Assembly: GCA_030605565.1 (NCBI GenBank)
Contig: JAUWIB010000050.1
Span: 1 to 44,834, forward strand
Direction of reading: 5' to 3'
Source: a bacterium
GTDB taxonomy: Bacteria; Zixibacteria; MSB-5A5; GN15; FEB-12
Length of the DNA: 44,834 bases
Below the pieces are notes generated by a model that saw only the letters and a program-made list of their open reading frames with translations, ran no database searches and was not told the origin of the DNA. Numbering within the stretch: the first letter of the stretch is position 1; the number at the start of each line of letters is the position of its first letter. Made by a program: the position numbers and the translations under genes. Below are positions 2,706-43,947 of this stretch, in pieces.

Positions 2706-2731
2706 GACTTGTTCCTCCTTGAACGAGCTAT

Positions 2732-3952: not shown

Positions 3953-3953
3953 C

Positions 3954-4679: not shown

Positions 4680-6049
4680 AGTTTTTCTAATGCTTCCATC
4701 AATTCGTCGCGGACGAGAGTGATCGATCCGGCGCCCATAATTATGACCAGATCACCCCTCCGGGCGATCCCGGTGACCGCCGCTGCTACCTTCGCACGCG
4801 ATCCGATACAAGTGAACTTGCCACCGCTGAGCTTTTCAGCCTGCCGCGCGATCAACTCGGAAGTGACACCGGGGATCGGCTTCTCGCGGGCCGGATAGAT
4901 ATCTGTCAGCAGGCATTCGTCGGCAATCGCCAGAGCCTCGGCAAACTGTCCGGCATACTGTTGCGTGCGGCTGTACAGATGCGGTTGGTAGACCACGATC
5001 ACCCGTCGACCGTAGATCTCTTTAGCCGTGGTGAGGGTGGCGGTGATCTCGGTGGGATGGTGAGCGTAGTCGTCCACTAAGAGGATATCATTGACTTCGC
5101 CAACAATCTCAAAGCGACGGGCTACGCCGCCGAAAGATGCCAAGCCTTCGGTGATGGCCGCCACCGGCGCCTCAATCTCTCGACAAGCGGCGACAGCGGC
5201 TAAGGCGTTGGCGACGTTATGGCGTCCGGGAACCCTGATACTCACCCTTCCCAACTGGTCCGTTCCATGGTAAACGTTGAATACCGACCGTCCCGGCAAC
5301 AATTCGATATCCACCGCTCGATAGTCGGCGGTAGCATCAAAACCGAAGGATACCACCGGCCGAGTGATCCGCGAACGCACGGCGGCCAGGTTGGCGTCAT
5401 CAGCCGAGATGATCGCCGAACCGTAAAACGGCACACTGTTCATGTAGGTCACAAATGACGTCAGGAGGTCATCCATCCCGTCGTAGCAATCCATGTGATC
5501 GGCCTCGATATTGGTGACCACGGCTATGGTGGGATACATGACCAGGAATGAACGGTCGTACTCATCCGCTTCGGCCACCAGATAATCGCCGCCGCCCAAG
5601 GCAGCGCCGCTGCCGAGCCCGGCGACGATGCCGCCCACGATTATGGTTGGGTCGTATCCGGCCAATTGCAGGACGCGACCTATCATGGACGTTGTTGTCG
5701 TCTTGCCATGCGTGCCGGAGACACCGATGGATTGCTTGAGCCGCATCAATTCACCAAGCATCTCGGCTCGCTTGATAACCGGGATACCCCGGCTTCGCGC
5801 GGCTGCCACCTCGGGGTTGTCGTCGCCAACAGCAGAAGAGATCACGACCAGGTCGGCATCCTGCAGATTCTCAGCCGAATGCTCTTCGTAGACTGCCACA
5901 CCGAGCGACTCTAAATATTGGGTGACGCTGCTCGGCGTGAGATCGGAGCCTCTGATTTTGAAACCGAGGTTGTGCAATAACTCGGCGATACCGGACATGC
6001 CCGCGCCGCCGACACCTACGAAATACAGTTTCTTGAACTTACCGAACAT
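4676..6049 (-). CDS. murC: UDP-N-acetylmuramate--L-alanine ligase MurC
   Basis: This is the first amino acid ligase of peptidoglycan precursor synthesis; it adds L-alanine to UDP-MurNAc using ATP in the cytoplasm. The protein has 457 residues with the Mur-ligase three-domain plan: the N-terminal UDP-binding motif FVGVGGAGMSG (about 10-20), the ATP P-loop GTHGKTT (about 112-118), the metal and carbamate region, and the C-terminal DDYAHHP motif typical of MurC. The ATG at 6047-6049 is chosen, with GAGGAAC just upstream. An in-frame GTG at 6101-6103 overlapping the murG stop as GTGA is a real alternative and would add 18 residues. No murB follows, unlike in many dcw clusters. Confidence 0.96.
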   Translation of the reverse strand: MFGKFKKLYFVGVGGAGMSGIAELLHNLGFKIRGSDLTPSSVTQYLESLGVAVYEEHSAENLQDADLVVISSAVGDDNPEVAAARSRGIPVIKRAEMLGELMRLKQSIGVSGTHGKTTTTSMIGRVLQLAGYDPTIIVGGIVAGLGSGAALGGGDYLVAEADEYDRSFLVMYPTIAVVTNIEADHMDCYDGMDDLLTSFVTYMNSVPFYGSAIISADDANLAAVRSRITRPVVSFGFDATADYRAVDIELLPGRSVFNVYHGTDQLGRVSIRVPGRHNVANALAAVAACREIEAPVAAITEGLASFGGVARRFEIVGEVNDILLVDDYAHHPTEITATLTTAKEIYGRRVIVVYQPHLYSRTQQYAGQFAEALAIADECLLTDIYPAREKPIPGVTSELIARQAEKLSGGKFTCIGSRAKVAAAVTGIARRGDLVIIMGAGSITLVRDELMEALEKL

Positions 6050-6099
6050 AGTTCCTCGACACCGGAAGGCTTTGGTTTCTTTCGTGACCGTGGAGCTCG

Positions 6100-7236
6100 T
6101 CACACCCGGTCAACTCCACGAGCTTCTTCAATCAGCTTGATGATGTCCTCGGCGATGACATCCACGGCCGGCTTCTTTTCACTGGTCGCCGCGACCACCG
6201 ACGCTTTCATGGCGGCATATCGATCCGACTCGAACAGTTCGACAACAGTGTCGATCAGATCGGTTCGGTCCAGATCGTCTGGATCGATCACGACGGCCAA
6301 CCCCCTCTGGGCGAACTCCAGAGCGTTCTTGCGCTGGTGATCTTCGGCCGCGTGTGGATATGGCACCAGTATCGAGGGGATACCGGTGGCCGTCAGTTCG
6401 GCCAGGGTCAATGCCCCGGCCCGCGCCACGGCAATGTCGGCAGCCGCGTAGACCAGATTCATTTTATCAGCAAACGGGAAAAGGGAGCAACACGAAGCCT
6501 TATCGCCCGCGTCAACGGTCACATCCTTGTAATCCCTCTTCCCCGTTTGCCACAAAAGTTGATACTTGTCGGTCAGAGATTTATTCTTGAGACTTTGTAG
6601 TACTGCCTGGTTTATCGCCCGCGCTCCCTGACTGCCGCCCAGCACGAGAATCGTGCGCTTGTTGGGATCGAGCCCGAACGCTTTCATCGCCTCGCCTCGG
6701 TTGCCACCAAGAACCGAAGAGCGCACCGGGTTGCCGGTGACAAGAAGTTCAGCCGGGGTATCCAGATAGTCGGCGGCGCGTTCAAAACCGAGATATATCT
6801 TTCGCGCATGGCGCGCCGACTGTCGAGTGGCGATGCCGGGGTAGGAGTTCTGTTCCTGCAGGACGGTTGGGATCTTCCGCGTGCGGGCCATTCGCAGGAC
6901 CGGCCACGAAACGTAGCCGCCGGTGCCCACAACGATATCGGGAGCAAACCGACCCAGCAGCAGCCGAGCTTTGAACAACGCGCCCGCCACCACGAACGGC
7001 AACAGCAGATTCCTCGGAGTGAAAGAACGAACCAGCCCGCGCATGTTAATCAGGTGCAATGGATACCCCAGAGTGTCACGAATGCGATATTCCAGACCAC
7101 GCTTAGTACCGACGAACCTGATATCGACTTCGCCGCGTCCCTCCAGCAGTTGAGAAATGCGGTCGGCGATTGCAACCGCCGGATAGAGGTGCCCGCCGGT
7201 CCCGCCCCCGGCGAAGAGCATCTTGTAGCGGGTCAT
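6100..7236 (-). CDS. murG: Lipid II synthase MurG (GlcNAc transferase)
   Basis: This is a membrane-associated GT-B glycosyltransferase that adds GlcNAc from UDP-GlcNAc to lipid I to form lipid II; 378 residues. The N-terminal glycine loop GGGTGGHLYPA (about 10-20) and the second loop LGGSQGARAIN (about 200) are diagnostic of the family, as is the donor-binding region ARAGALTLAE. The start ATG overlaps the ftsW stop as ATGA, and the gene ends 50 nt before the preferred murC start. Position and sequence agree, so confidence is high. Confidence 0.97.
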   Translation of the reverse strand: MTRYKMLFAGGGTGGHLYPAVAIADRISQLLEGRGEVDIRFVGTKRGLEYRIRDTLGYPLHLINMRGLVRSFTPRNLLLPFVVAGALFKARLLLGRFAPDIVVGTGGYVSWPVLRMARTRKIPTVLQEQNSYPGIATRQSARHARKIYLGFERAADYLDTPAELLVTGNPVRSSVLGGNRGEAMKAFGLDPNKRTILVLGGSQGARAINQAVLQSLKNKSLTDKYQLLWQTGKRDYKDVTVDAGDKASCCSLFPFADKMNLVYAAADIAVARAGALTLAELTATGIPSILVPYPHAAEDHQRKNALEFAQRGLAVVIDPDDLDRTDLIDTVVELFESDRYAAMKASVVAATSEKKPAVDVIAEDIIKLIEEARGVDRV

Positions 7237-8333
7237 CGCGGCACCGTCCTTCGCGAAAGGTTCAGGAGCACACCGACCGCCGCGCTTGACATGACAAGCG
7301 ACGACCCCCCATAAGAAATGAACGGCAACGGCAATCCGGTCACCGGCAGCAACGATGTCACCACCCCGATGTTGACGGCGATGTTGACAAAGAGCGACAG
7401 GGTCATGCCACCGGCCAGGAGGTAGCCGAACTTGTCCGGCTGCGTGAACGATATCCTGAGACCCCGCCAGAGCAGGTAGAACAGGAGCGTCAGAATTACC
7501 ATGAGGCCCAGCAGACCTATCTCCTCACCAGTCGCTGCGAAGATGAAATCGGTATGCGGATAAGGCAGAAAGAACAGTTTCTGATGACCCTCCCCGAGAC
7601 CGACGCCGAGCCAACCGCCGGCGCCCAGCGTCAAAGCCGCCTGCCTGGCCTGATAGCTCCCCTGCAGAGGATCGGCCACTGCAGCCACGAAGTCCATGAT
7701 GCGAGCTTTCTTGTAGCCCAGGCCGAATACGACCAACAAGGCCATAGCTACCATCGGCGCCGCCGCGCCGAGCAGATGTTTGATGCGCGCCCCGGCCAAA
7801 AAGAATATGCCCACGACAGTGATGGATATTACGATTGTGCTGCCGAGATCGGGTTCGAGAAGCACCAGCAGCAACCCGACTCCTGTCAGCGGGAGGTATG
7901 GCCACAACAGTTGGCGCAGGTCAGTGAGGTCGCGACGTGGGTTCGACAATGAAAAGGCCAGGAAGAAAACGAGAACGAAGCGGAATATCTCGGACGGCTG
8001 ACCGGAGAACGGACCCAGGGCAATCCAGCGGTGTGCTTCGTTGCGGACCGGTCCGACAAACGCCAGGGCCAACAGCACCATACTTACCAACAAAGCCGGA
8101 ACCGAGTAGATGGCCATTCGGCTAAGGTTCAGTTTGCTGATTACGAATACCGCACCCAGCGAAAGCATCGCCCATAGACACTGCTGCCGCAGGAACAACA
8201 AGTGTGAACCGAAGCGTCCTTCGGCCAGTATCGAAGATGTTGAGTAGATCATAACCAAACCGATAACCATCAGCGCCAAATAAGCCAGCAGCAATCCTTC
8301 GTCGACAGTGCTTTTAGTCAGCGATCGTTTCAT
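7233..8333 (-). CDS. ftsW: Peptidoglycan glycosyltransferase FtsW (SEDS family)
   Basis: This is the septal SEDS glycan polymerase that works with FtsI to polymerise lipid II at the division site; 366 residues with about ten hydrophobic helices. The SEDS signatures visible are LEPDLGS, in the region carrying the catalytic Asp, the segment GEGHQKLFFLPYPHTDFIF, and the C-terminal GLPLPFISYGGSSL. The start ATG at 8331-8333 lies inside the 3' end of murD (about a 20-nt overlap), with AGGAAAG upstream. Longer in-frame readings are unconserved and mostly Arg/Ser-rich, the shadow of murD. Confidence 0.96.
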   Translation of the reverse strand: MKRSLTKSTVDEGLLLAYLALMVIGLVMIYSTSSILAEGRFGSHLLFLRQQCLWAMLSLGAVFVISKLNLSRMAIYSVPALLVSMVLLALAFVGPVRNEAHRWIALGPFSGQPSEIFRFVLVFFLAFSLSNPRRDLTDLRQLLWPYLPLTGVGLLLVLLEPDLGSTIVISITVVGIFFLAGARIKHLLGAAAPMVAMALLVVFGLGYKKARIMDFVAAVADPLQGSYQARQAALTLGAGGWLGVGLGEGHQKLFFLPYPHTDFIFAATGEEIGLLGLMVILTLLFYLLWRGLRISFTQPDKFGYLLAGGMTLSLFVNIAVNIGVVTSLLPVTGLPLPFISYGGSSLVMSSAAVGVLLNLSRRTVPR

Positions 8334-9705
8334 TCTCTTTCCTGTCGCGCTTGAGGTCAGCCACCGCCGCCTTGAACAATTTCCCGCGCTGCTCGAAGTT
8401 GTCGAACATATCGAAGCTGGCGCAGGCTGGTGACAACAGCACCGTGTCGCCCGGGCGCGCCTGCGCGAAGCTGACCTTGACCGCCTCCTCAAGTGAATCT
8501 GCAAACTGGGTCGGGAAGTGTCGTCCCAAACTGTCGTACATTTTCTCTTTGGCTTCACCGATCAGGACGATTGAAGCTATCCGGCCCTGCCCGTGCTCCA
8601 ACAGCGGCTGGTAAGAGGCTCCCTTGTCGCGTCCACCGGCAATGAGATGGATACGGGTGTCGATCGAACGCAAGGCGTAGCAGACGGAGTCGACATTGGT
8701 CGCTTTCGAATCATTGACAAAATTGATCCCCGCCACGCGCGAGACGGGTTCGAGGCGATGCTCGACGCCGGGGAATGTCTTCAGCACGCGCGCCATGATT
8801 GCCGGATCGACGTCGAACAACGTTGCCGCCGTTACCGCCGCCGCCGCGTTCTGCAGATTATGCGGACCGGGGATGCGAATATCCCGGGCAGAAACTATTC
8901 GCAGTCCCCGTCCACCATGCGCTATGCAAAGATCTCCCTGCTTAACAAAGGCGCCCTGCTTGACCTCACCCTCGGTAGTGAAATACAGTTTGTCAGCGGC
9001 GGTCGTGACGCTGTCACCCATGATTTCCTTGTCCTGAGCGTTCAGGATGAGATAGTCACCACTCTTTTGATTCTCGGTGATACGATACTTGAGGTTCTTG
9101 TACGCCTCGAAGCTGCCGTGGCGGTCAAGATGATCCGGCGACAGATTCAGGATCATGGCCACGCGCGGTGCGAAGTCGGCGATCCGTTCCAACTGGAAAG
9201 TCGACACCTCAACAACAGCCACTCCGGACTTGCCGATCTTGTCCGCCACCTGCGCAAACGGTAGTCCGATGTTACCGCAGACGAAAGTATCGAGACCGGC
9301 GGCGGATAGTATCTCACCTATCAGGGTGGTGGTGGTGGTTTTGCCGTTGGAGCCGGTGACACCGATGATCTTCCCGCGACAGACCCAGGAGGCAAACTCG
9401 ATTTCCGAGAAGATAGGTATCCCCCTGGCTTGCGCTTTTTTCAGGATGTCGATCTCCGGCGGCACACCGGGCGAGACTATGATATAATCCGACTTCAACA
9501 GGCGATCCGTATGTTGGTCGGTTTCGTAGGCGATGCCCTCCTGCCTGAGCTGAGTGATAGCCTCGGCTAACCTATCGGCCGGCGCCGCGTCGGAGACAAA
9601 GGGCACGCCGCCAAGAGCCGACGCCAATGAGGCCGACGAAAGGCCGGAGCGACCCATCCCTATGACACCGATGGTCCGTTCGCTTATGCGTTCCTGAACA
9701 GTCAT
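8314..9705 (-). CDS. murD: UDP-MurNAc-L-Ala--D-glutamate ligase MurD
   Basis: This cytoplasmic ligase adds D-glutamate to UDP-MurNAc-L-Ala; 463 residues. The Rossmann start VIGMGRSGLSS binds the substrate UDP, the ATP loop GSNGKTT sits at about 118-124, and the central-domain motif LNLSPDHLDRH and the later NDSKATN are characteristic of MurD. The 3' end overlaps ftsW. The upstream neighbour mraY ends 7 nt before the ATG, which fits one transcript. Confidence 0.97.
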   Translation of the reverse strand: MTVQERISERTIGVIGMGRSGLSSASLASALGGVPFVSDAAPADRLAEAITQLRQEGIAYETDQHTDRLLKSDYIIVSPGVPPEIDILKKAQARGIPIFSEIEFASWVCRGKIIGVTGSNGKTTTTTLIGEILSAAGLDTFVCGNIGLPFAQVADKIGKSGVAVVEVSTFQLERIADFAPRVAMILNLSPDHLDRHGSFEAYKNLKYRITENQKSGDYLILNAQDKEIMGDSVTTAADKLYFTTEGEVKQGAFVKQGDLCIAHGGRGLRIVSARDIRIPGPHNLQNAAAAVTAATLFDVDPAIMARVLKTFPGVEHRLEPVSRVAGINFVNDSKATNVDSVCYALRSIDTRIHLIAGGRDKGASYQPLLEHGQGRIASIVLIGEAKEKMYDSLGRHFPTQFADSLEEAVKVSFAQARPGDTVLLSPACASFDMFDNFEQRGKLFKAAVADLKRDRKENETIAD

Positions 9706-9712
9706 TGTTTTC

Positions 9713-10801
9713 TTATCGCACTTTCAAGGTCGCCAGGGTTAAGAGGACACACAGAGCACCAAGAATCCAGAAGCGAACCACGATTTTGGATTCCGACCAG
9801 CCGCACAGTTCGAAGTGGTGGTGTATCGGCGCCATCTTGAACACTCGTTTGCCGCCACGGTAGCGATATGACAAAACTTGTATAATCACGGACAAAGCAA
9901 CCATGACGAACACGCCGCCAACGATCACCAGCAACAGTTCTTTCTTGAGCAGAATAGCGATTGCACCCAGGGCGCCGCCCAGTGCCAGCGATCCGGTGTC
10001 ACCCATGAACACCTCGGCGGGGTGTGAATTGAACCAGAGAAAACCCAGCGCCGAGCCGATAGCCGCTCCACAGAAAACAGCCAGTTCACCGCTTCCGGGC
10101 AGGTACTCGATGGCCAGATACTCCGAGAAATCGACGCGGCCGGTGACGTAGGCGATACCGGCAAAGGCCATGAAGCACAAACCGGCCAGCCCGATGGCGA
10201 GACCGTCCAGGCCATCGGTAAGATTGACGGCATTGGAGGAGCCTGTTATCACGATCACGATGAAAGGCGCGTAGAATACCCCGAGTGTGAGCACGTAGTT
10301 CTTGAAGAACGGAATCCCGGTCGTGCCGTCGTAGATTTTCTCAGGCGCCAGCCAGAACAGGGCAGCGGCAAAAACAGCACCCAAAAGTAGCTGGCCGATC
10401 ATCTTCTTACGCGCTACCAGTCCCTTTGGCTGACGTTTGATAGCTTTGAGGTAGTCGTCCATGAAACCGAGCGCGCCCAGCCAAACGGTTACCAGTAGCA
10501 CCATCTGCGTATAGTAGTTAGTCAGGTCCGCCCAGAGGAGGGTGGGAATAATGATACCGGCCAGAATAATCAGCCCACCCATGGTCGGCGTGCCCGCTTT
10601 TTTCTTGTGACGCTCAGGCATCTCTTCGCGAATCGTCTCAGCTACTTGATACTTCCGAAGCAGCCGGATGAAAAACGGTCCGAGAATAAGACAGATGAAA
10701 ATGGCCGTGACGGTAGCGCCGGCCGTGCGGAATGTTATGTAGCGAAAAACATTCAGGCCGGAGACATATTCGGAGAGAGGATACAAGAGGTGGTATAGCA
10801 T
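9713..10801 (-). CDS. mraY: Phospho-MurNAc-pentapeptide transferase MraY
   Basis: This integral membrane enzyme transfers phospho-MurNAc-pentapeptide to undecaprenyl phosphate, giving lipid I; 362 residues with about ten membrane helices. The diagnostic motifs are all present: KKAGTPTMGG near the N-terminus, the DDY pair in GFMDDYLK, NAVNLTDGLDGLA, FMGDTGSLALGG and APIHHHFEL. The start ATG overlaps the murF stop as ATGA. There is no sign of truncation or unusual substitution. Confidence 0.98.
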   Translation of the reverse strand: MLYHLLYPLSEYVSGLNVFRYITFRTAGATVTAIFICLILGPFFIRLLRKYQVAETIREEMPERHKKKAGTPTMGGLIILAGIIIPTLLWADLTNYYTQMVLLVTVWLGALGFMDDYLKAIKRQPKGLVARKKMIGQLLLGAVFAAALFWLAPEKIYDGTTGIPFFKNYVLTLGVFYAPFIVIVITGSSNAVNLTDGLDGLAIGLAGLCFMAFAGIAYVTGRVDFSEYLAIEYLPGSGELAVFCGAAIGSALGFLWFNSHPAEVFMGDTGSLALGGALGAIAILLKKELLLVIVGGVFVMVALSVIIQVLSYRYRGGKRVFKMAPIHHHFELCGWSESKIVVRFWILGALCVLLTLATLKVR

Positions 10802-12195
10802 CAGGCGTCACCCTCTCTCTTGGCTACAGCGTCGATCACAGCCTCGAGGCCGACGCCGCGCGATGCTTTGACATAGACGAGATCGTCTTCGGTGAAGTAT
10901 CGGGACAACTCCACGGCACAGGATGCGGCGTCTTCAAATTGACGGCACGATCTCTCATCCCTCCCGGCTGCCGACAACTCATCGTGGATCTGACGCGAGA
11001 GGGGTCCTACCGTTACGGCCAAGTCGAAGTCACAGGTAGCAAGCAGTCGTCCGACCTCACGGTGGTACCGTTCTGCTTCGTGTCCCAACTCGAGCATGTC
11101 ACCCAGCACAACGATCCGACGACCGGAGGCCGGCAGAGTAAAGAAGGTCTGCAAGCCCGCTTTGACCGATTCCGGATTGGCGTTGTAACAATCGGCCACG
11201 AAAGTCACCCCGCCATGTTTGACGATCTGACCACGCATCGGCGCCGTGGCAAGGGGGATACTTTCAGTAGCCACGTCGTCAAAGTTGTATCCGAGTGTTC
11301 GGACGATTGCATACGCCGCCAGCAAGTTGCTGACTTGATGTCGACCGAGCAGCGGCAGTTTGAACAGATGACCATCGATTGTCACCGTAGTGCCGTCGAC
11401 GCCCTGCGGATCCAGCACATCGACGGTGAAATCAGCGTCGTGATCGAGGGCAAAGGTAATGAAGTCACGGCGTATGGCTCTCGTTTGATCGATCAAAACC
11501 GGGTCGTCACCGTTTATAATTACCGGGACTTCGGCATCTGCTGTACACACCAATTCCAGCTTGGCGCGGGCGACCGATTCGATCGAATCGAGGAACTGCA
11601 AGTGCGATGGTCCTACATTGGTGATCGCAATCAGATCGGGGCGAACGATCTGTGCCAGCCTCGGCATCTCCAGTTCGGTTGAAATACCGAGTTCCATCAC
11701 GGCAACCGTCGTCCTCTGCGGGACAGCAAAGAGAGAGAGAGGCACCCCAAAGAGGTTGTTGAGATTGCCCGGAGATCGGTAGACGTCTGTTGTCACAGCG
11801 TTCAGGAGATGATAGGTCAACTCTTTGGTCGTCGTCTTGCCGTTGGAACCGGTGATGCCGACCATGCGAGCAGTGAGACTATCGCGATAGGCCGCCGCAA
11901 GGGTCAGCATCGCTTCATGACTGTTGGGTACGGCGATCACCGGCACCTCGCCGCGAATATGTTCCAGACCCGGCCAGGCGAATTCTGCGATTATCCCGGA
12001 GGCGCCGGCGGCGATAGCGGCGTTGATGAAATCATGTCCATCATTGACCTCGCCGCGGATAGCCACGAACAGTTGCTTCTCCTTTACTGCCCGGCTGTCG
12101 ATAGCCACGCCGGTGAAGCTCTGTTCGACGTTGTCCGTGTTGTACACGGTGCCGCCGGTGACGGCTGCCAGTTTACTGAAACGCAACGTTATCAA
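10801..12195 (-). CDS. murF: UDP-MurNAc-tripeptide--D-Ala-D-Ala ligase MurF
   Basis: This ligase adds D-Ala-D-Ala to complete the UDP-MurNAc-pentapeptide; 464 residues with the Mur ligase fold. The ATP loop GSNGKTT is at about 116-122, with ELGIS and NVGPSHL in the central domain and DCYNANPES and VVLGDMLELG in the last third, which are typical of MurF. The start is a TTG overlapping the murE stop as TTGA. The only SD-like stretch (AAAGGGAA) is too close for that TTG but well placed for a second in-frame TTG at 12184-12186, so the protein may be 3 residues shorter. No ddl gene is nearby, so the D-Ala-D-Ala supply must be encoded elsewhere. Confidence 0.96.
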   Translation of the reverse strand: MITLRFSKLAAVTGGTVYNTDNVEQSFTGVAIDSRAVKEKQLFVAIRGEVNDGHDFINAAIAAGASGIIAEFAWPGLEHIRGEVPVIAVPNSHEAMLTLAAAYRDSLTARMVGITGSNGKTTTKELTYHLLNAVTTDVYRSPGNLNNLFGVPLSLFAVPQRTTVAVMELGISTELEMPRLAQIVRPDLIAITNVGPSHLQFLDSIESVARAKLELVCTADAEVPVIINGDDPVLIDQTRAIRRDFITFALDHDADFTVDVLDPQGVDGTTVTIDGHLFKLPLLGRHQVSNLLAAYAIVRTLGYNFDDVATESIPLATAPMRGQIVKHGGVTFVADCYNANPESVKAGLQTFFTLPASGRRIVVLGDMLELGHEAERYHREVGRLLATCDFDLAVTVGPLSRQIHDELSAAGRDERSCRQFEDAASCAVELSRYFTEDDLVYVKASRGVGLEAVIDAVAKREGDA

Positions 12196-13688
12196 TTCCC
12201 TTTGTCACTCACCAGTCCGGTATAGCCAAGTTCGGCCAACACTCGCTTCGCTTCGTTGGTGTCATCGAACTCGTGCCTGACACCTTTGATTTCCTGATAG
12301 TTCTCCGAGCCTTTCCCGGCCAGCAGGACGACATCGCCGGGTTCGGCCTTCTTTAGAACAACTTCAATGGCGGCGCTTCTATCCGGGATTATGTCGTACT
12401 GATCACCTTCGAGACCGGGCTTGATATCCTCGATGATGGCATCGGGTTCTTCGCTGCGTGGATTATCTGACGTCACCACACAGTAATCGGACCCGGTCGT
12501 GGCCGCCTTGCCCATCAGGGGACGCTTTCCCTTGTCGCGATCACCCCCGCACCCGAACAGCAGCAGCAGCTTTCCCTGTGACAATTCGCGCGCCGTTTCG
12601 CACAAGCGTTCGATGGCATCGGGGGTGTGAGCGTAGTCGACATAAACAGCGAACGGTTGCCCGCACTCAACGTAGTTGAGACGGCCCGGCACAGGTTGAG
12701 CCGTCTGAAGTCCGCGGACGACGTTGTCGATATCGACGCCGGCGGCCAAGCCGGCGGCAGCAGCAGCCAGAGCATTGATAAGATTGAACCGCCCCGGCAG
12801 CGGGAAGGTCACCGTGTGAACACCCATCGGCGTTTTGAGATCAAACATGGTTCGAGCACTCTCCAGTTCGAAACTGGTGCAGTAGACATCGGCCGAAGTA
12901 TCCTCCAGCGAGTAAGCCAAGTAGGATGATGTGATGTCACTGAGGAAGGATCGAAACTCCGGCACATCGATATTAATGACAGCGTAGCTGAGAGGACCTT
13001 CCAGTCGCTTAAGGAGTTGCTTCTTGGTCTGAAGGTAGTCCTCCATGGTCTGATGGAAATCGAGATGATCGCGCGTGATGTTGGTAAAAACGGCCACCCG
13101 AAAATCGACGTTGTCCGCCCGGTGCAAGGCCAAAGCGTGCGATGACACTTCGACAACGGCATTGACGCAATGGTTCTTCTTCATGAGATAGAGCAGGCGC
13201 TGCAAATCGAGTGATTCCGGCGTCGTGCGCTCGGCGGGGAAGGTCTCCTTGCCGGAATCGTAGACGACAGAAGTCACCAGGCCGACCTTCTTGTTGCGCG
13301 CTTCCATTATGCTTTTGATCAGATAACAGACCGTGGTCTTGCCATTGGTGCCGGTGACGCCACAGATCTTGAGTTTGCGCCCCGGGTAGTCGTAGAATTT
13401 CGCTGCGAGATCAGCCAGCGCCTGGCGGGTGTCGGCCACCTTGACGTAGTTCTCAACGAGGCTGCATTCGTCATGTTCACCCACGACGGCCACCGCGCCC
13501 CGCTCAACCGCCTGAGGCACAAATTCGAAACCGTCGCGCTCATAACCCTTGATGGCGACAAACAAACTGTTCGGTCTCACCTGGCGCGAGTCGTATTCGA
13601 TATTATCGATCTCGACGTCGCCGCTGCCGGTCAGTTCGGCTTGTGAGTGTCCTGTCAATAGTTCGCTGAGTTTGATGTGAACCTCCAC
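12192..13688 (-). CDS. murE: UDP-MurNAc-tripeptide synthetase MurE, meso-DAP type
   Basis: This enzyme adds the third stem amino acid to UDP-MurNAc-L-Ala-D-Glu; 498 residues. The ATP loop GTNGKTT is at about 113-119, VSSHALALHR and TNITRDHLDFH lie in the central domain, and DNPR is at about 408-411. The DNPR motif marks enzymes that add meso-diaminopimelate rather than lysine, so the wall is probably DAP-type. The start is uncertain. GTG at 13686-13688 has AGGAG only 1 nt upstream, while a better placed GGAGG precedes an ATC codon that begins the usual MurE start (I)KLSEL. Confidence 0.95.
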   Translation of the reverse strand: MEVHIKLSELLTGHSQAELTGSGDVEIDNIEYDSRQVRPNSLFVAIKGYERDGFEFVPQAVERGAVAVVGEHDECSLVENYVKVADTRQALADLAAKFYDYPGRKLKICGVTGTNGKTTVCYLIKSIMEARNKKVGLVTSVVYDSGKETFPAERTTPESLDLQRLLYLMKKNHCVNAVVEVSSHALALHRADNVDFRVAVFTNITRDHLDFHQTMEDYLQTKKQLLKRLEGPLSYAVINIDVPEFRSFLSDITSSYLAYSLEDTSADVYCTSFELESARTMFDLKTPMGVHTVTFPLPGRFNLINALAAAAAGLAAGVDIDNVVRGLQTAQPVPGRLNYVECGQPFAVYVDYAHTPDAIERLCETARELSQGKLLLLFGCGGDRDKGKRPLMGKAATTGSDYCVVTSDNPRSEEPDAIIEDIKPGLEGDQYDIIPDRSAAIEVVLKKAEPGDVVLLAGKGSENYQEIKGVRHEFDDTNEAKRVLAELGYTGLVSDKGN

Positions 13689-13692
13689 ACTC

Positions 13693-15771
13693 CTAAGTCG
13701 GTTTGCAGGTCAGACGACATATCTTGTCGCCGCTGATTGTTTCGCCGGGCCTGAGGGACTGTTTGACCACACGACCACGGCCCTTGATAGTGAACTCTAC
13801 CCGGAGAAAATCCAGGTAGGCGGAAGCCTCACGGATTGACAATCCGGTCAGGTCGGCAATGCGAGGCAGGTCGTCGCCGGGTGACGTTACCGATACCAGG
13901 ATGTCGTCGTTCTTGACGGCCATGCGATCCGCTGCCGGGAATTGCCAGACGACAAAACCACTCGTGTCACTGCACCGGAGCGCCAGATCGTGTTCCTCGG
14001 CCCGGAGGCGTGCCGCGCCGATATGGCGACCGACCAGATCAGGAACCTCGACGGTGGATTCCAGTTCGTCACTCTTCGCCACCAGTATCCTCTCAGAGGG
14101 GGTAAAATAGTCCGGGTTGAGGCGGGCATATCGCTCGGCAATTCTGCGGAAAGTCGGTCCCGCGGTCCATCCACCGTAATGCATCGGATGTGGTTCGATC
14201 AATACTACCATCCCCGCGATGAGCGGTTGGTCGCACGGGAAAAAGCCGGCAAAGCTGGCGGTAAATTTGTTCTTGAAGTAGCAACGATTCTCATGATCGG
14301 GGATTTCGGCGGTGCCGGTCTTGCCACCGATGCATACTACATCCGATTTCACCGGCATGGCGGTTCCGACCTCGACCACTCCCTTCATGAATGATCGTAG
14401 CGTGTCACAGGTTATTCGGCCGGCCACGCGTCCGATGGACTCACGGTCGCAACGGTCGGCGATGTAACCATCTTCATCGACACTGCCGAGAATCAAGTGC
14501 GGTCGCAACAGTTCTCCACCATTGGCGATAGCTGCGAAACCGGCGGCCATCTGCAGAGCGTTGACAGCCACGGCATGACCCATAGCCAGCGCCGAGATCG
14601 TGTAGTCGGACCATCGTTCGGGCGTTACCAGACGGCCGCGGGTCTCACCCGGCAGACCGATACGAAGCTTTTGTCCCATACCGAATCGGCGCGCCGTGTT
14701 GTACAGTTCGTCGCCGCCTAGTTGCACGGCGTACTTGCCCATGCCGATGTTGCTGGAGAGTTCCACCACCTCGCGGAAGGAGAGCCATCCGTGCTTCTTG
14801 TCATCGCGAAGGCGGCGTCGACCCAGCTTCCAAACGCCCTCCTCGCAATAGACCGAATCTTCGAAGTTGATCAAACGGGCATCCAACAGTCCGGCCGCCG
14901 TGAACGCCTTAAAGACGCTGCCCGGTTCGAACTGGTCGGAGATAACACGCAGTTTGGCAGGTTTGTCCGGCGATAATTCGCTGGGGTCATAGTGGGCCAT
15001 GGTCAGGATGTCGCCGTTGTTGCAGTCGAGCATCACGACCATCCCACTCCTGGCGCTATATTCAGAGACTGCCGCCCGCAACTCCTCCTCGGCGATCTCC
15101 TGCAAACGCCAGTCGACGGTCAGCACGAGCGAACGGCCCGGCGAAGGTTTCACCAACGCCTTCTCGTTGACACGGAAAGTGTTGCGCAAACCATCACGGC
15201 GGATATCAGCCAGTCCCTTGCGCCCGGCCAGCGTCGAGTCGAAAGCGAACTCCAGGCCGGACTGGCCGCTGTTATCAATATCTGTAAAGCCCAGAATTTG
15301 CCGGCCGATCAGCCCGAAGGGATAGGAGCGGTGAGCGGAACGGCGCAGATAGAGACCGTTCGGAGCCGTCTGTTCAATCCGGACGGCGGCGGCATCATCA
15401 AGCTGTCGCTTAATCCATCGAAAACGCCGCGACGCAAGCCCATACTTTCGGGCTGCTGAACCGGCCTTGAGATCGAATAACTGCTCGAGATATTTCCCCA
15501 CCGCCTTGAGTTCGCGCTTATTGGCCGGGTAGGCATACAACGACGAGACCACGATATTGTCGGCGACTATCTGACCGTTTCGATCATACACCAACCCGCG
15601 ATCGGCAGGAATGTCAATTGTCCCCTCCGACTGTTTCTTGACAATCTCGCAGTATTGGGAATGTTTGAAAACCTGCAGATGAACCAGACGAGCCGTCACC
15701 ACAGCAAAAAACAGGCAGACAATCGCCAGCATAATTCCAAGACGCAGACGCTGCTGCCCGGTCAGAATCAC
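13693..15771 (-). CDS. ftsI: Septal transpeptidase FtsI/PBP3 with two PASTA domains
   Basis: This is a class B penicillin-binding protein that crosslinks septal peptidoglycan with FtsW; 692 residues. There is an N-terminal transmembrane helix (about 10-29) and the PBP dimerisation domain with RGLVYDRNG. The transpeptidase domain carries the active-site SVFK (S285, K288), SSN (339-341) and KTGT (484-487). Two C-terminal PASTA domains follow, at about 573-631 and 634-691. PASTA tails on this protein are best known from Gram-positive bacteria but also occur in some diderms. The start GTG overlaps the ftsL stop as GTGA and is preceded by a strong GAGGAGGGGG. All catalytic residues are intact. Confidence 0.96.
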   Translation of the reverse strand: MILTGQQRLRLGIMLAIVCLFFAVVTARLVHLQVFKHSQYCEIVKKQSEGTIDIPADRGLVYDRNGQIVADNIVVSSLYAYPANKRELKAVGKYLEQLFDLKAGSAARKYGLASRRFRWIKRQLDDAAAVRIEQTAPNGLYLRRSAHRSYPFGLIGRQILGFTDIDNSGQSGLEFAFDSTLAGRKGLADIRRDGLRNTFRVNEKALVKPSPGRSLVLTVDWRLQEIAEEELRAAVSEYSARSGMVVMLDCNNGDILTMAHYDPSELSPDKPAKLRVISDQFEPGSVFKAFTAAGLLDARLINFEDSVYCEEGVWKLGRRRLRDDKKHGWLSFREVVELSSNIGMGKYAVQLGGDELYNTARRFGMGQKLRIGLPGETRGRLVTPERWSDYTISALAMGHAVAVNALQMAAGFAAIANGGELLRPHLILGSVDEDGYIADRCDRESIGRVAGRITCDTLRSFMKGVVEVGTAMPVKSDVVCIGGKTGTAEIPDHENRCYFKNKFTASFAGFFPCDQPLIAGMVVLIEPHPMHYGGWTAGPTFRRIAERYARLNPDYFTPSERILVAKSDELESTVEVPDLVGRHIGAARLRAEEHDLALRCSDTSGFVVWQFPAADRMAVKNDDILVSVTSPGDDLPRIADLTGLSIREASAYLDFLRVEFTIKGRGRVVKQSLRPGETISGDKICRLTCKPT

Positions 15772-16262
15772 CGATCCCCCTCCTCACCGTTCAGGCTGGC
15801 CGGTCTTAGTTGACGCAGATCACCGGCGCTGGCGCGATTCTCCGTTACCACCGGCACATACCGGGTAACGCGTTCGATAGCTCTGAACATCGTAGCCAAC
15901 TCGTCAGGCTCCGGGGGTTTCTCTTCCCGTCCGATCAGCGTGTAGATCTGATCTGCCGCCACCGGCTGTAACCCAAGCGAATCCATGGCATACTTCTCGA
16001 TCCGTCCGGCGGCCGACAGCGAGGCCAGACGGGCGTTCAACTTCGAGGTGGCATCGACCAGTTGCTCATTCTCGGCGCGCAACTGTGAAACCTGTTTGAC
16101 CGTCTCCAGGACATGCACCCTTTGCCAGACATGGATGACGCTGGCCATGAGGAACACCGTGACCAGCACGGCTATCGGGAAATAGCGATGCGACCTCAGA
16201 CGATTGATCACAGAGGAGCGAATTTCCACCGTCTCTTTGAACTTGCGCACCGTCTTCCTCAT
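15768..16262 (-). CDS. ftsL: Cell division protein FtsL
   Basis: This is a small bitopic divisome protein that forms a coiled coil with FtsB and FtsQ and activates FtsWI; 164 residues. A basic N-terminus is followed by one transmembrane helix at about 30-46 (FPIAVLVTVFLMASVIH), then a heptad-like coiled coil at about 50-80 (VSQLRAENEQLVDATSKLNARL), then a longer periplasmic tail. Sequence conservation in FtsL is always low; the assignment rests on size, topology and position between rsmH and ftsI. The ATG overlaps the rsmH stop as ATGA. The reading frame is open further upstream, but that part is the shadow of rsmH. Confidence 0.88.
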   Translation of the reverse strand: MRKTVRKFKETVEIRSSVINRLRSHRYFPIAVLVTVFLMASVIHVWQRVHVLETVKQVSQLRAENEQLVDATSKLNARLASLSAAGRIEKYAMDSLGLQPVAADQIYTLIGREEKPPEPDELATMFRAIERVTRYVPVVTENRASAGDLRQLRPASLNGEEGDR

Positions 16263-17209
16263 ACGGGCAGCCTCTCTGCAACACGAAGTCGGGCCGATCG
16301 GGAGCGGGGGTTGGATGCTATCTCTTCGGCGGCAGGCCTTACCGGCTTGCGAGTGATGATTTGCATTTGGGGAACCCGGCCACACACGCAAACCGGAAAT
16401 CGAGGAGGACAGGTGCACCCTTTGGCGGCCTGCTGAAAGAAGCGCTTGACGATGCGGTCCTCCAGCGAATGGTAGGCAATTACGGCCATGCGACCGCCGG
16501 TATTGAGGAAATCCAACGCTATAGGAAGGAGCTTCGAGAGTTGGGCCAACTCGTCATTGACAGCGATACGCAACGCCTGAAAACAGCGGGCAAGAGCTTT
16601 GTTGCGATAATTCGGAGGGGCCAGTTGGGAGACGATGGTGGTGAGGTCGGCGCTGGCGGTGAACATTTTCTGTTGTCTTTCCCTGACGATCGCTGCGGCT
16701 ATCCGGGCCGCCTGCTTCTCCTCACCGAAATCGCGAAAGATGGCGGTGAGGTCCTTCTTACTCAGCGAGTTTAGCAGTTCCGCCGCGGTCGGCCCGCCGG
16801 ACTCCGGGTCGAACCGCATGTCCAGAGGTCCCTCCAGACTGAATGAAAACCCGCGCTCGGCATCTGCCAGTTGATCCGATGAGAGTCCCAGATCCAGCAG
16901 AATACCGTCAAACTTCTTATCCTCGAATTGGCCGACTACGGTTTTCAAATCGCCGTATGCGGCGTGTACAATATCACGGACTTGTCGGCAGTCACCGAGG
17001 TTTCGTCTGGTCCGATCGACCGCCTGAGGGTCCCGATCGAGACCGTACAGTCGGGCCGCCGTGCCCAGTTTCGAGGCCAGCGCCTTCATGTGGCCGCCGG
17101 CGCCGGCGGTGAGATCGAGATAGGCGCCATCAGGATTAGTCACCAGCAAGGCAACTACCTCGGCGACCAGCACCGGCCGGTGACTACTCTCGTTCGCGTC
17201 CGGGATCAT
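16259..17209 (-). CDS. rsmH: 16S rRNA (cytosine1402-N4) methyltransferase RsmH
   Basis: This SAM-dependent enzyme (formerly MraW) methylates N4 of C1402 in 16S rRNA near the P site; 316 residues, usual length. The N-terminal HRPVLVAEVV is diagnostic, motif I is DLTAGAGGHM, and GILLDLGLSSDQLADAERGF and VIAYHSLEDRIVKRFF are strongly conserved in the family. The ATG at 17207-17209 overlaps the 3' end of mraZ by 26 nt, so translation of the two is probably linked. It is the second gene of the dcw operon. Confidence 0.97.
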   Translation of the reverse strand: MIPDANESSHRPVLVAEVVALLVTNPDGAYLDLTAGAGGHMKALASKLGTAARLYGLDRDPQAVDRTRRNLGDCRQVRDIVHAAYGDLKTVVGQFEDKKFDGILLDLGLSSDQLADAERGFSFSLEGPLDMRFDPESGGPTAAELLNSLSKKDLTAIFRDFGEEKQAARIAAAIVRERQQKMFTASADLTTIVSQLAPPNYRNKALARCFQALRIAVNDELAQLSKLLPIALDFLNTGGRMAVIAYHSLEDRIVKRFFQQAAKGCTCPPRFPVCVCGRVPQMQIITRKPVRPAAEEIASNPRSRSARLRVAERLPV

Positions 17210-40136: not shown

Positions 40137-41270
40137 TTAGCGGGCAGCTTCAACAGATGCCTTCAATCTGAGCACCAAAGCCGTCAGTGAGCCAAGAATA
40201 TGCACATTCAGGCCCAGATCGGCAAGGCTAATCTTGATTCGCGCCGACATAGCGGCGGCCACCCGAGAATCGACAAAATGGGTCGACAAACGCTTCAGAT
40301 CGGCGGCGAAGTCAATATTGGTCAACTCCTGCTCCTCGCCGACCTGGGCAAAGCGGGAACAGTCGCGTATCAGCGATTGCCAAAGTCGCAGGATATCCTC
40401 GGCCTCACCTCTATCGCGTGGATTCAGCAGTTCGGCCAGGTGCGCCACTACCGACGGTGCGTCCTCGGTAAGAAGCGCCTTGAAAAGCATAAATCCAACG
40501 GCCCGTCGTGATGTGTCGGATTCTTCGCCGCTGTCGATTAGTTCGATGGCCTGCCCAAGGGAGCCGTCGGAAATGCGGGCAAGCAGCCGGGCGCGTTTCT
40601 CGCTAAGGTCGTAGTTTTGAATGAGGTACTGTTCAATCGCGTCAGGGCGAATTCGCTCCAACCTGATCCTCTGAGCCCGTGACTGAATGGTCGGCAACAG
40701 CGACTCCGGACGTTCGGCGGTGAGAACTATGACGGTGTCGGAAGGTGGTTCCTCAATCATTTTCAGAAGCGCATCGGCGGAATCGGCTCTCATCTTTTCC
40801 ATACGATCGAACAGCGCCAGACGGGTGATGCCGTCGGGCGCTTTGCGACTGAGACTTCTCTTTATCTCGCGGGCGGCGGCGATTGGGATATTGGTGGTGG
40901 CGGTGGCCGATAACCGGCAGAAAGGCTCCCGGCGCCTGTTGGCCAGAATTTCGTTGGTTATCTCAATAGCATCATCCGAGGTTTTGACCGGTGGCAGCGG
41001 CAGGGCCACCAGTAGCCCCTGGAAATTGAGATTGTAGATGGCGCGGCAATGACGGCAGGTTCCGCATGGTCGGAGTTCTCCGTCAGGTAAATCCGATCTG
41101 ACCGGCTTGTCACAGTTGAGCAATGCCGCCAGGGCAACGGCCAGGGGCCAGTGCCCAAAGCCGTCACGACCATGGAACAGATAGGTTCCGGCTACCCGAT
41201 CCGCAGCATACGCCCGCGACAATATCGTCCAGGCTTTGGGCTGAAACTGTGTGATATCAAAAGGAGTCAA
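40137..41270 (-). CDS. holB: DNA polymerase III delta-prime subunit (clamp loader)
   Basis: This is an AAA+-type subunit of the clamp loader; 377 residues. The Walker A equivalent is degenerate (GRDGFGHW, lacking the Lys), which is normal for delta-prime. A zinc module (about 53-76) shows the set C53, C69, C72, C75 in CGTCRHC. MEKMRADSADALLKMIEEPPSDTVIVL is the conserved delta-prime segment. The usual SRC motif reads SRA here. The TTG start at 41268-41270 overlaps the 3' end of the envC-like gene by 14 nt and lacks a clear SD. The order holB-ricT is as in Bacillus. Confidence 0.93.
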   Translation of the reverse strand: MTPFDITQFQPKAWTILSRAYAADRVAGTYLFHGRDGFGHWPLAVALAALLNCDKPVRSDLPDGELRPCGTCRHCRAIYNLNFQGLLVALPLPPVKTSDDAIEITNEILANRRREPFCRLSATATTNIPIAAAREIKRSLSRKAPDGITRLALFDRMEKMRADSADALLKMIEEPPSDTVIVLTAERPESLLPTIQSRAQRIRLERIRPDAIEQYLIQNYDLSEKRARLLARISDGSLGQAIELIDSGEESDTSRRAVGFMLFKALLTEDAPSVVAHLAELLNPRDRGEAEDILRLWQSLIRDCSRFAQVGEEQELTNIDFAADLKRLSTHFVDSRVAAAMSARIKISLADLGLNVHILGSLTALVLRLKASVEAAR

Positions 41271-42423
41271 ATCTGATCCATTTCACGGGATCCAGTGGTT
41301 CTCGACCTAACCTCAATTCGAATTTCAAACGACCCTCATCAGCCACCGTCGCCAGTTTGTCGGCGGCGTGGAGATACCGGCCGACCGTGACGGTGACGTC
41401 GGCCAGACCGGCGTAGGTACTGTAGTACTGGTCGCCATGGTCCAGGATAATGAATTTTCCGTAGCCGCGCAAATCCCCAATGTAGGCCACCGTGCCCGAC
41501 GCTACAGCGCTCACTTCGCGACCGGGAGTTGCTTTGACGGTAATCCCCGGAGAGAACGACTTGAGCCTGGTCACTGGGTGTACCTTGGAACCGAAAGTCT
41601 CGACAATCTTCCCCCTGACCGGCGGCGGCAGTTGACCTTTCAGAGTTGCAAACAGCGACGGTGACGCCGGTTGGTCACCGGATCGGGGACGATGCTCTGT
41701 TTCCAGCCGGGCAATGATCGCCTCCATCTCCTCAGCGGCCTGCTGCAACATTATCAGGTAGTCAGCTTCCTCGGTCTTGCGGCGGCGCAGCGCCTGCAAT
41801 CTTTTCTGTTCGCGTTCTTTTCTGCTCTTATCGAGAGCGGTCGTTGTTTCCTTCTTTTTCTTCAGACCGGCGACGCGGTCCTTTTCCCCGCTGTATCCCT
41901 CCAAAAGAGCGACCGATTCATCAAGAAAATCCGAGGCCGCAGCTACGTTGCCGGCCTCGAATCCGGCCACAGCGGTCAGGTACCTCACGCGACGGTTCAA
42001 CTCCAGCTCCCGATTGGGGTGGTCTGAGGTCGTCTCGGTGGGGCTGCGAGTTGCGAGATAGAAGCGGCGAATACCCATGAGGAAATGTTGGCGCGCTTGC
42101 TCATGGTTGAGGCGGCTCAGATCCAACTGTTGTTCAGCGGAAACGATATCACCTTTGACTTTCTTCAGTTTGTGGCTGAGGCGATCGATCACCTTTCGGT
42201 TTGAAGCGATTTTCTGGTCGTATTCGGAAATGCCTCCCAGGACTCCCAACTCCTCGACCTTAAGAGAGTCAAGTCGGTTTTGTCCCTGCTCGACTTCGCG
42301 TTGGATCTGTTCGAGTTCCTTCTTCTGGTTAAGGATCTTCTCCTTCTGCCCCTGCACCTGCGTTATCGTAAACAAGATCAGGGCAGGAGTAACTATCAGA
42401 GTTGTCAGACTTCGTTGGATCAT
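41257..42423 (-). CDS. EnvC-like amidase activator with degenerate LytM (M23) domain
   Basis: The protein has 388 residues: a signal peptide (about 1-25), a long coiled coil (about 26-240, Lys/Glu/Arg-rich), then a C-terminal LytM/M23 domain (about 285-388). The domain keeps the fold pattern GRGYGKFIILDHGDQYYSTYAGL-like but lacks the zinc ligands: the usual HxxGxD is SFSPGIT and the final HxH is KFEL. It is therefore non-catalytic, like E. coli EnvC, which activates amidases under FtsEX control. It directly follows ftsX (4-nt gap). The ATG at 42421-42423 begins a good signal peptide. A partner amidase is not in the window. Confidence 0.85.
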   Translation of the reverse strand: MIQRSLTTLIVTPALILFTITQVQGQKEKILNQKKELEQIQREVEQGQNRLDSLKVEELGVLGGISEYDQKIASNRKVIDRLSHKLKKVKGDIVSAEQQLDLSRLNHEQARQHFLMGIRRFYLATRSPTETTSDHPNRELELNRRVRYLTAVAGFEAGNVAAASDFLDESVALLEGYSGEKDRVAGLKKKKETTTALDKSRKEREQKRLQALRRRKTEEADYLIMLQQAAEEMEAIIARLETEHRPRSGDQPASPSLFATLKGQLPPPVRGKIVETFGSKVHPVTRLKSFSPGITVKATPGREVSAVASGTVAYIGDLRGYGKFIILDHGDQYYSTYAGLADVTVTVGRYLHAADKLATVADEGRLKFELRLGREPLDPVKWIRFDSF

Positions 42424-42427
42424 GCGT

Positions 42428-43285
42428 CTACTTAAGCATTCTCCTGATACCGAGATACCCGCTGATGAGTCCGATAACGGCAACGGCGGCAACGAACAGG
42501 GCTATTTCGTTGGCTCCCGGCAGCACCGGTTCGAACCTGGTGAATGAAATGCGTGATCGTACCCAGAGGATAGCTGCCCAGCCGGCGGCGCCGGAAAGTC
42601 CGGTGATAAGCAAACCCTCCATTAGAAAGGGGGCGGCCAAAAACAGCTTGCCGGCGCCGAGGATCTGCATCTGATAGAATCCGACAGCGCGGGTTTGGGT
42701 CATCAGGCGGATATTGTTGGCGGAACCGATCAGAGCCGCCAGCAGAATGAGACCGCCGAGGATCATGCCCAGACTCAGGATGATAGCTCGGGTCTCTTCT
42801 GCTTTGGAAAGCCATCTTCGACCGTAGAAGACCTGGGCGACGTTCTCGAATCGAGACACTCTGGCCTCAATGGCGGTCATCGCCGCCGTAGTCAGACTGT
42901 GCTCCTCGAAAGTCAGAAGGTACGATGCCGGCAGCGGGTTGGCGCTGTCATATCCGGCCAGAAGATCGGTGCCGACCAGTTCGGCAAGCCGTTCGCGCGC
43001 CTGGGCGGCGGAAACAAATTCGACAGTGCGAACGCCCTCGATGACCTCAAGGGAGTCATGCAAAGCCGGTGCCGCCGATTCTGCAGTGGCTGGCTTAAGG
43101 AATAACTCCATCTCCAAATCGGACAAAAGGCGTGAATAGAATCTTTCGGATGTCCCGGCCGCGATCCAGAACAGATCGAAAAGCAGAAACAGCAGGGTCA
43201 GCGACATCAGTGAACTGATCGTGGTACCCGGATGACCGACCAGGTTGCGAAAAAGTTCTTTGAGTGTGTGCCAGAGCAATCTCAC
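42428..43285 (-). CDS. ftsX: Cell division protein FtsX
   Basis: This is the membrane partner of FtsE; 285 residues. The topology is one N-terminal transmembrane helix (about 30-45), a large periplasmic domain (about 50-165), then three more helices at about 170-190, 215-240 and 262-282. This is the FtsX plan, in which the extracytoplasmic loop contacts EnvC-like or amidase partners. EGVRTVEFVSAAQARERL and ENVAQVFYGRRW are FtsX-like. The GTG at 43283-43285 is preferred since it overlaps the ftsE stop as GTGA; an in-frame GTG 9 nt earlier is possible. Confidence 0.9.
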   Translation of the reverse strand: MRLLWHTLKELFRNLVGHPGTTISSLMSLTLLFLLFDLFWIAAGTSERFYSRLLSDLEMELFLKPATAESAAPALHDSLEVIEGVRTVEFVSAAQARERLAELVGTDLLAGYDSANPLPASYLLTFEEHSLTTAAMTAIEARVSRFENVAQVFYGRRWLSKAEETRAIILSLGMILGGLILLAALIGSANNIRLMTQTRAVGFYQMQILGAGKLFLAAPFLMEGLLITGLSGAAGWAAILWVRSRISFTRFEPVLPGANEIALFVAAVAVIGLISGYLGIRRMLK

Positions 43286-43947
43286 GACAGGCACCCGTTT
43301 TCGATTCTCAGGAAATCGCTTTGCGGCAACCTCCCGGTTTCGGCCTGCGAGGTGAGGATTATCATCGACCGGCCCGACAGCGACACGCGCACCAGGTACT
43401 CGAACACGCGCTCATAAGTATCCGGGTCCAGACCGGCCGACGGCTCATCGATTATCATAAGCGGTTGGTTGGCGATGGATGCGCGGGCAAACTGAGCCAG
43501 GGTATACTCGACACGGGTCAGGTGGCGCGGGTACAACGAGGCCTGTTTCAGCAACTTGAACTCGACGAGCATTTTCATCAGCCGTTCGCGACGCACCCGA
43601 CGACGCTCGGAAGCCAGCACCAGGGGAAACATCACGTTTTCCGCAACTGTCAGCCTTGGTACCAGGTCGAAAACACCTCCGACACCGCCGATGTGGCGAC
43701 GAATCCGCTTCAGCAACCGTCGTGGCCTCGGCCTCAAACAGTGGCCGAACAACTCCACCGAACCGCTGTCGGGAAACCTAAGTCCCAGGATCATCTCAAC
43801 CAGGGTCGTCTTGCCGGAGCCGGCCGCTCCTGATATAACTACCGACCGCCCCGCCGTCAGTTTCAGATTGACATCCTTGAAGATCGGCTCTCCGCGATCG
43901 GAAGTCATATAGACATTGTTGCACTCGACGATTGAATCAGTAGACAT
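43282..43947 (-). CDS. ftsE: FtsE-like ABC ATPase with degenerate catalytic motifs
   Basis: The protein has 221 residues from the ATG at 43945-43947; an ATG at 43986 gives 13 more, and neither has a good SD. Position and fold are those of FtsE, the ATPase of FtsEX. Walker A GAAGSGKTT (about 40-48) and Walker B LMIIDE (about 163-168) with PSAGLD are intact. The signature LSGGQ/E is replaced by LTRVE (about 143-147), the Q-loop glutamine is not found (VFDLVPRL instead of the usual FQ-containing form), and the switch His of the ATHD motif is Ser (about 200). ATP binding is likely, but the canonical catalytic cycle is doubtful. It is followed by ftsX with a GTGA overlap. Confidence 0.85.
   Translation of the reverse strand: MSTDSIVECNNVYMTSDRGEPIFKDVNLKLTAGRSVVISGAAGSGKTTLVEMILGLRFPDSGSVELFGHCLRPRPRRLLKRIRRHIGGVGGVFDLVPRLTVAENVMFPLVLASERRRVRRERLMKMLVEFKLLKQASLYPRHLTRVEYTLAQFARASIANQPLMIIDEPSAGLDPDTYERVFEYLVRVSLSGRSMIILTSQAETGRLPQSDFLRIENGCLS

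Follow-up and report, generated by a model that had tools for sequence, protein, structure and literature searches.

Descriptions of FtsEX present it as a conserved switch, driven by ATP, that controls hydrolysis of the cell wall. In E. coli it remains an open question whether its essential output is ATP hydrolysis itself or the mere recruitment of an activator. The locus described here raises the same question. The window, by which we mean the whole contig of 44,834 nucleotides from a Zixibacteria MAG, carries an ftsE-like gene followed by ftsX and an envC-like gene (Table 1), and several of the motifs with which an ABC ATPase hydrolyzes ATP are missing from its product. Is this protein an FtsE, is its state peculiar to one genome, and what could such an FtsEX complex still do?

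Table 1. Positions of the three operon genes and of the FtsE motifs in the window, with the evidence for each.
Feature	Position	Strand	Evidence or remark
ftsE-like gene	43282..43947	-	221 residues; ORF open to 43986
A-loop position: Ser replaces adenine-stacking aromatic	43900..43902	-	alignment to E. coli Y11
Walker A GAAGSGKTT, intact	43804..43830	-	Lys 33/33, Ser/Thr 33/33 in f1
Q-loop segment IGGVGGVFDLVP; Gln replaced by Gly	43657..43692	-	alignment, Q86 position
ABC signature replaced by LTRVE	43507..43521	-	alignment; also in contig-scan homologs
Walker B LMIIDEP, Asp and catalytic Glu intact	43441..43461	-	Asp 33/33, Glu 33/33 in f1
D-loop SAGLD, intact	43426..43440	-	Asp 33/33 in f1
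Switch position (ILTSQ): Ser, not His	43348..43350	-	alignment, H195 position
ftsX, overlapping the end of ftsE	42428..43294	-	TIGR00439 E 5.6e-34; PF18075, PF02687
EnvC-like gene: coiled coil and LytM/M23 domain	41257..42423	-	PF01551 E 2.5e-18, coiled-coil match

Among the NCBIfam models, the FtsE model TIGR02673 is the top match to the gene product (E 7.8e-34), although its 117 bits do not meet the curated cut-off of 264.85 bits, which the canonical FtsE proteins of two other Zixibacteria families (f14/f15) clear with 266-272 bits. Because of this score we do not claim the equivalog label, and the gene is labeled an FtsE homolog in an FtsEX operon. The same model is the top one for 9/10 degenerate relatives tested. 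The best PDB sequence matches are likewise FtsE structures (6z63/6z4w). A monomer structure model of moderate quality (28 homologs as input; pLDDT 75, pTM 0.70) has S. pneumoniae FtsE (6z63) as its first fold match (E 5e-21, TM 0.76), with FtsEX and FtsEX-EnvC structures within the top ten. The gene lies directly upstream of ftsX and overlaps it; this order is kept in relatives, and the overlap in most of them. A start at 43986 would give a protein of 234 residues, however, aligned homologs favor the internal ATG at 43947, the start given in the preliminary description of this DNA.

That description had reported intact Walker A (GAAGSGKTT) and Walker B (IIDEP) motifs together with an unrecognizable Q-loop, LTRVE in place of the signature and Ser at the switch His position, all of which is borne out by alignment to the FtsE proteins of S. 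pneumoniae (6z63, gap-free across the motifs) and E. coli. Relative to E. coli FtsE, the window protein carries Q86G, S139T, G140R, G141V, and H195S, and the A-loop Tyr (Y11) is absent. The complete ABC motif set is not met, with Walker A, Walker B, and the D-loop kept and the A-loop, Q-loop, signature, and His absent. A normal ABC signature elsewhere in the chain, which would have refuted the description, is not found in the window protein. The intact D-loop (SAGLD) and the lost A-loop aromatic lie beyond its list of motifs.

The window belongs to f1, one of the anonymous family groups (f1-f18) used for the phylum, and for this family 33 complete FtsE sequences, with members approximately 50% identical, were compared. 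All 33 retain K41, S/T42, D162, E163, and D169, and all 33 are without the A-loop aromatic, Q86, S139, G140, G141, and H195. The replacements are themselves uniform, with T/R/V at S139/G140/G141 in every sequence and Gly in place of Q86 in 33/33 f1, 5/5 f2, 9/9 f4, and 2/3 f3 proteins. The switch position is more variable (S29, A3, G1, and His in none) and the A-loop position is mostly S/T/N, with an aromatic in 0 rows. Since the G, T, R, and V replacements are fixed in f1, they represent a constrained new state and not drift. The conservation of LTRVE in the lineage, proposed earlier as a check, thus holds in 33/33 sequences. Intact motifs in close relatives, which would have spoken for a local anomaly, are not seen; the Gly/LTRVE form also occurs in MAGs recorded as closed chromosomes (CP070777, CP070756, CP070824). 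A profile scan of genome contigs with an f1-only FtsE alignment returned close named matches that were mostly Candidatus Zixiibacteriota (Zixibacteria) MAGs, some of them recorded as chromosomes. At one locus (L152; JAUXBO010000015.1, 3001-3660) an LTRVE-type FtsE has Glu in place of the Walker A lysine (GSGES), which is either real or an error in a single MAG.

The window FtsX matches the extracellular domain model FtsX_ECD (PF18075) with 51 bits (cut-off 23.5), and the permease model PF02687 at its cut-off (25.5). Models of the ActS/NlpD/EnvC type are among the top matches of the EnvC-like protein, whose LytM zinc ligands look lost in aligned sequences, not in a structure (SFSPGIT, TYAGL, LKFEL), and the EnvC-type make-up of an N-terminal coiled coil and a LytM domain without zinc ligands is met. 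In 15/15 FtsEX families the gene after ftsX encodes an EnvC-like protein whose LytM domain has few zinc ligands. This, with a dN/dS of 0.08-0.21 for ftsE within the window's genus (where estimable), which indicates purifying selection, upholds the earlier view that FtsX and the EnvC-like protein are retained and that the module is under selection. That the EnvC-like protein binds FtsX and activates amidases is an inference based on gene order and domain composition; the window genome has two Amidase_3 genes. The first LytM zinc ligand is lost in the EnvC-like genes of nearly all families. The later His of the motif Y(A/G)HL is Gly (TYAGL) in f1-f4 and kept in f14, f8, and f9, so a change in the surface of the activator may have accompanied that in FtsE. 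Genes for FtsZ, FtsA, MurC, and MurG lie on the same contig at the opposite end of the window from ftsEX-envC. They form part of a dcw-type cluster (273-17209, minus strand; RsmH, MurG, MurC, FtsA, FtsZ) that ends beside a flagellin gene. FtsA is present in 83/83 genomes searched, which rules out loss of FtsA as the circumstance permitting loss of the ATPase.

The other ABC ATPases of the window's genome that could be read by script keep Walker A and B, nearly all retain a Q-loop and a switch His, and LSGGx is present in the majority, a few having variant signatures (e.g., LSSG, YSKG, LSRG). A genome-wide decay of ABC motifs is ruled out by this retention. In ten non-Zixibacteria genomes the FtsE adjoining FtsX has canonical primary motifs; nine other-phylum loci were uninformative as no FtsE adjoined ftsX. 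The window genome and 12 others, including four canonical controls, were searched for a second FtsE or a partner NBD. Neither the window genome nor the single-contig or closed f1 and f4 genomes yielded a second FtsE over the cut-off, whereas the same search in f14/f15, as positive controls, recovered the canonical FtsE over the cut-off. Nor was an orphan FtsE-like NBD found in the degenerate genomes searched, where the nearest NBDs examined adjoin their own large MacB/Lol-type permeases. The suggestion that this FtsE works with another ATPase is therefore unsupported, with neither a second FtsE nor an orphan FtsE-like NBD in the window genome, and the canonical second copy that was to be looked for did not appear. 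Most genomes are MAGs, so that absences hinge on completeness (96% for the window genome, in 152 contigs).

Across Candidatus Zixiibacteriota, 76 FtsE proteins adjoining FtsX were tabulated in E. coli numbering. Nine of the 15 FtsEX-bearing families have a degenerate signature along with degeneration at other catalytic residues, and one more, the intermediate f11 (Q to E, ISAGE, His to Tyr), shows this in part. Canonical FtsE is present in f6, f14, f15, and f16, and in f8 also, except for the switch His. In f4 the Q-loop region reads GGVGG, the signature is mostly L(S/T)RGE, and the D-loop Asp is mostly gone; every row has the Walker A Lys and the Walker B Asp and Glu. Family f2 has the same glycine Q-loop, (V/I)S(E/K)VE as its signature, and no catalytic Glu (DAP, DGP, DSP). 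The loss goes furthest in f3, from which Walker A is wholly missing along with the Walker B Asp; the operon with ftsX and envC is kept, and TIGR02673 ranks first for one of the two members tested and second for the other. Altered signatures without a switch His are also found in f5, f7, f9, f10, and f17, with the catalytic Glu absent in f5, f7, f9, f10, and one of the two f17 rows, and the FtsE proteins of f3, f5, f9, and f17 are eroded at several motifs. By alignment, the loss is wider than the preliminary description reported, as related families are also without the catalytic Glu or Walker A. Throughout the order that includes this genome, the Q-loop, the signature, and the His are gone, and the Glu, the D-loop, or Walker A was apparently lost afterwards, depending on the family. 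At the f3 loci L042, L044, and L045, the protein encoded upstream of ftsX has SLSSRAVAG at Walker A and ILEAP at Walker B. FtsX was not found in six f18 genomes, the single f12 genome, or the single f13 genome; in G090-G095 (f18), G075, and G076, which are without FtsX, only MacB/Lol-type permeases were detected.

How often this happened is harder to establish. In a tree of FtsE and FtsX, rooted on E. coli and computed with the FtsE motif columns removed, the canonical families are the earliest to branch, all fully degenerate families fall into a single group (96/97), and f11 represents a second change. Because long branches meet in this tree, an FtsA tree of 41 genomes was also built, in which f1-f4 form a clade (100/99), f5, f9, f10, f17, and f18 fall together with weak support, f7 stands apart, and f18 is sister to f17 (100/98). 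The FtsA tree requires three changes and has several open forks. One to three losses are compatible with the trees and the number is not settled, while descent of the f1-f4 degenerate state from a shared origin is well supported. As f18 is the sister of degenerate f17 in the FtsA tree, its FtsEX may have been lost after FtsE had degenerated.

What can such a protein do? The Q-loop Gln and the switch His are sensors of the gamma-phosphate, and the A-loop aromatic stacks on adenine. In the mechanotransduction model, ATP turnover in FtsE drives EnvC. Structurally, each ATP site of an ABC dimer is finished by the signature of the opposite protomer, acting together with the Q-loop, switch His, and Walker B Glu (PMC11627006). 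With these trans signature contacts, the gamma-phosphate sensors, and adenine stacking gone, the ATP-sandwich hydrolysis cycle should not run, and a homodimer of the window FtsE would be missing signature and sensors at both sites. We consider it probable, though far from secured, that the window FtsE is a non-hydrolyzing NBD within a Zixiibacteriota FtsEX-EnvC amidase-activation complex and serves mainly as a recruiting and positioning scaffold, the loss of hydrolysis being an inference. An FtsE2X2 complex would most likely form as usual, the homodimer being likewise inferred, and f1 FtsE would probably still hold nucleotide phosphates and Mg, as judged from its conserved Walker A and B. FtsEX would then be mainly a scaffold from cytoplasm to periplasm, in which FtsE would keep FtsX at the divisome, FtsX would recruit and orient the EnvC-like activator (a role that is inferred), and the activator would switch on periplasmic amidases. 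Timing would come from recruitment, not from ATP turnover, and nucleotide occupancy would be no more than a structural element, slow or permanent.

This scaffold reading is favored because f2 has lost the Glu and f3 Walker A with the operon kept, which speaks against hydrolysis as the reason why the module persists in this order, and because ATPase-defective E. coli FtsE(D162N)X recruits EnvC. The E. coli complex supports cell separation like the wild type if FtsA is insensitive, on condition that its FtsX is able to bind EnvC (PMC7343993), which by analogy establishes feasibility; it is weaker than the wild type without NlpD (PMC7343993). The earlier idea of a nucleotide-dependent scaffold fits f1, where the cis phosphate-binding motifs are kept and the Q-loop, signature, switch His, and A-loop are lost in 33/33, however, "nucleotide-dependent" is doubtful as a general statement because related families have lost the catalytic Glu or Walker A. 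We also lean, with due reserve, toward the broader claim that FtsEX in the window's order operates without ATP hydrolysis, and in f3 without ATP binding, that its FtsE is a pseudo-ATPase scaffold, and that the mechanotransduction model fails across much of the phylum. Against the scaffold reading, the E. coli FtsE changes E163Q (PMC11491553) and D162N (PMC7343993) impair division. That f1 keeps Walker A, Walker B, and D-loop is an argument that a nucleotide, or the fold around it, still matters in this family, and the invariance of Walker A, the Walker B Glu, and the D-loop suggests that nucleotide chemistry does too. The ubiquity of FtsA likewise means that its loss cannot explain why a dead FtsE is tolerated.

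In a different reading, f1 and f4 FtsE would be a re-engineered ATPase, with the invariant Arg of LTRVE/LSRGE as a trans arginine finger, the Walker B Glu as base, the Thr/Ser keeping the signature hydroxyl, and the glycine contacts replaced. The Walker A Lys and the Walker B Asp and Glu in every f1 and f4 row, an Arg replacing G140 in 33/33 f1 and 8/9 f4 sequences, and the Thr/Ser retained at S139 are all as this reading would have it. Nonetheless, f1 also lacks the Q-loop Gln, switch His, and A-loop aromatic, the D-loop Asp is largely lost in f4, and the sister families f2 and f3 keep the operon even though f2 lacks the catalytic Glu and f3 lacks Walker A. We regard catalysis through this Arg as unlikely, but it cannot be excluded. 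Catalysis might instead be borrowed, if FtsE paired with a canonical NBD encoded elsewhere, so that, as in TAP or TM287/288, an asymmetric dimer had a single competent site. Known degenerate NBDs usually do occur in heterodimers with a consensus site (PMC7756269), and the window FtsE could lend its Walker A/B to a partner's signature. Yet there is no second FtsE over the cut-off, the nearest NBDs sit beside MacB/Lol-type permeases, closed genomes included, the overlap of ftsE with ftsX in most relatives is what FtsE2X2 predicts, and without a switch His even a shared site would be poor. Such a pairing seems to us very improbable.

Gene decay, with the module on its way out and FtsE functionless, might be read from the absence of FtsX in f18, the sister of degenerate f17, and from the multi-motif erosion in f3, f5, f9, and f17. 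It is hard to reconcile with the low dN/dS in the window's genus, an intact ORF and gene order, and substituted motifs that are invariant across a family of such divergence, and we think it very improbable. Finally, as the window is a MAG contig and the TIGR02673 score is 117 vs. 265 bits, an artefact or a misidentification could be suspected. Assembly or sequencing error is ruled out by identical motifs recurring in many species, dozens of independent MAGs, and closed chromosomes, and a non-FtsE ABC protein by FtsE being the best model (also for nine of the ten degenerate relatives), by synteny with ftsX and envC, and by FtsE as first fold match; the chance that either applies is close to negligible.

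On the scaffold reading, the system can be compared with several known ones. It resembles the type VII ABC system FtsEX-EnvC of E. coli (and P. aeruginosa) in its ftsE-ftsX pair, FtsX extracellular domain, EnvC-like coiled coil with a degenerate LytM domain, amidases, FtsA, and FtsZ, but envC lies within the same operon in Zixibacteria, and canonical FtsE has every ABC motif, including the Q-loop, signature, switch His, and A-loop that the window FtsE is without. In sequence terms the Zixibacteria state is a real, lineage-wide variant of the known FtsEX system. Like E. coli FtsE(D162N)X, which recruits EnvC in an ftsA* G366D background (PMC7343993), it would be ATPase-defective, although in Zixibacteria this is inferred. 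The E. coli mutant carries one engineered change, in Walker B, and in normal cells it inhibits division, whereas the Zixibacteria state is natural, multi-motif, and order-wide. In the degenerate NBDs of TM287/288, TAP, and the ABCC family, catalytic residues are also lost and the altered site is strongly conserved (PMC7756269), and in heterodimeric ABC exporters the nucleotide at such sites is possibly a structural glue (PMC7756269). There, however, the partner's consensus site drives the cycle, whereas the window NBD should homodimerize with both sites degenerate, and would be a rare presumably homodimeric ABC protein of this kind.

The FtsEX switch in most Zixibacteria families may thus operate without ATP hydrolysis. 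Evolution has apparently removed the ATPase stepwise and kept the complex, with one other family lacking FtsX, and the families offer a natural series separating a scaffold from a motor role, with canonical relatives of the same phylum as controls. Annotation based on cut-offs overlooks such degenerate FtsE proteins. No papers on Zixibacteria FtsE or on a naturally ATPase-dead FtsE were found in open-licence PMC, with subscription journals mostly outside the scope of the search. An altered FtsE signature was also observed outside the phylum, as Fusibacter sp. 3D3 and a Clostridiales MAG (L261, L262) each have, in addition to a canonical FtsEX, a second copy whose signature reads LSWGE. Unlike the window FtsE, these copies keep the Q-loop, Walker B Glu, and switch His.
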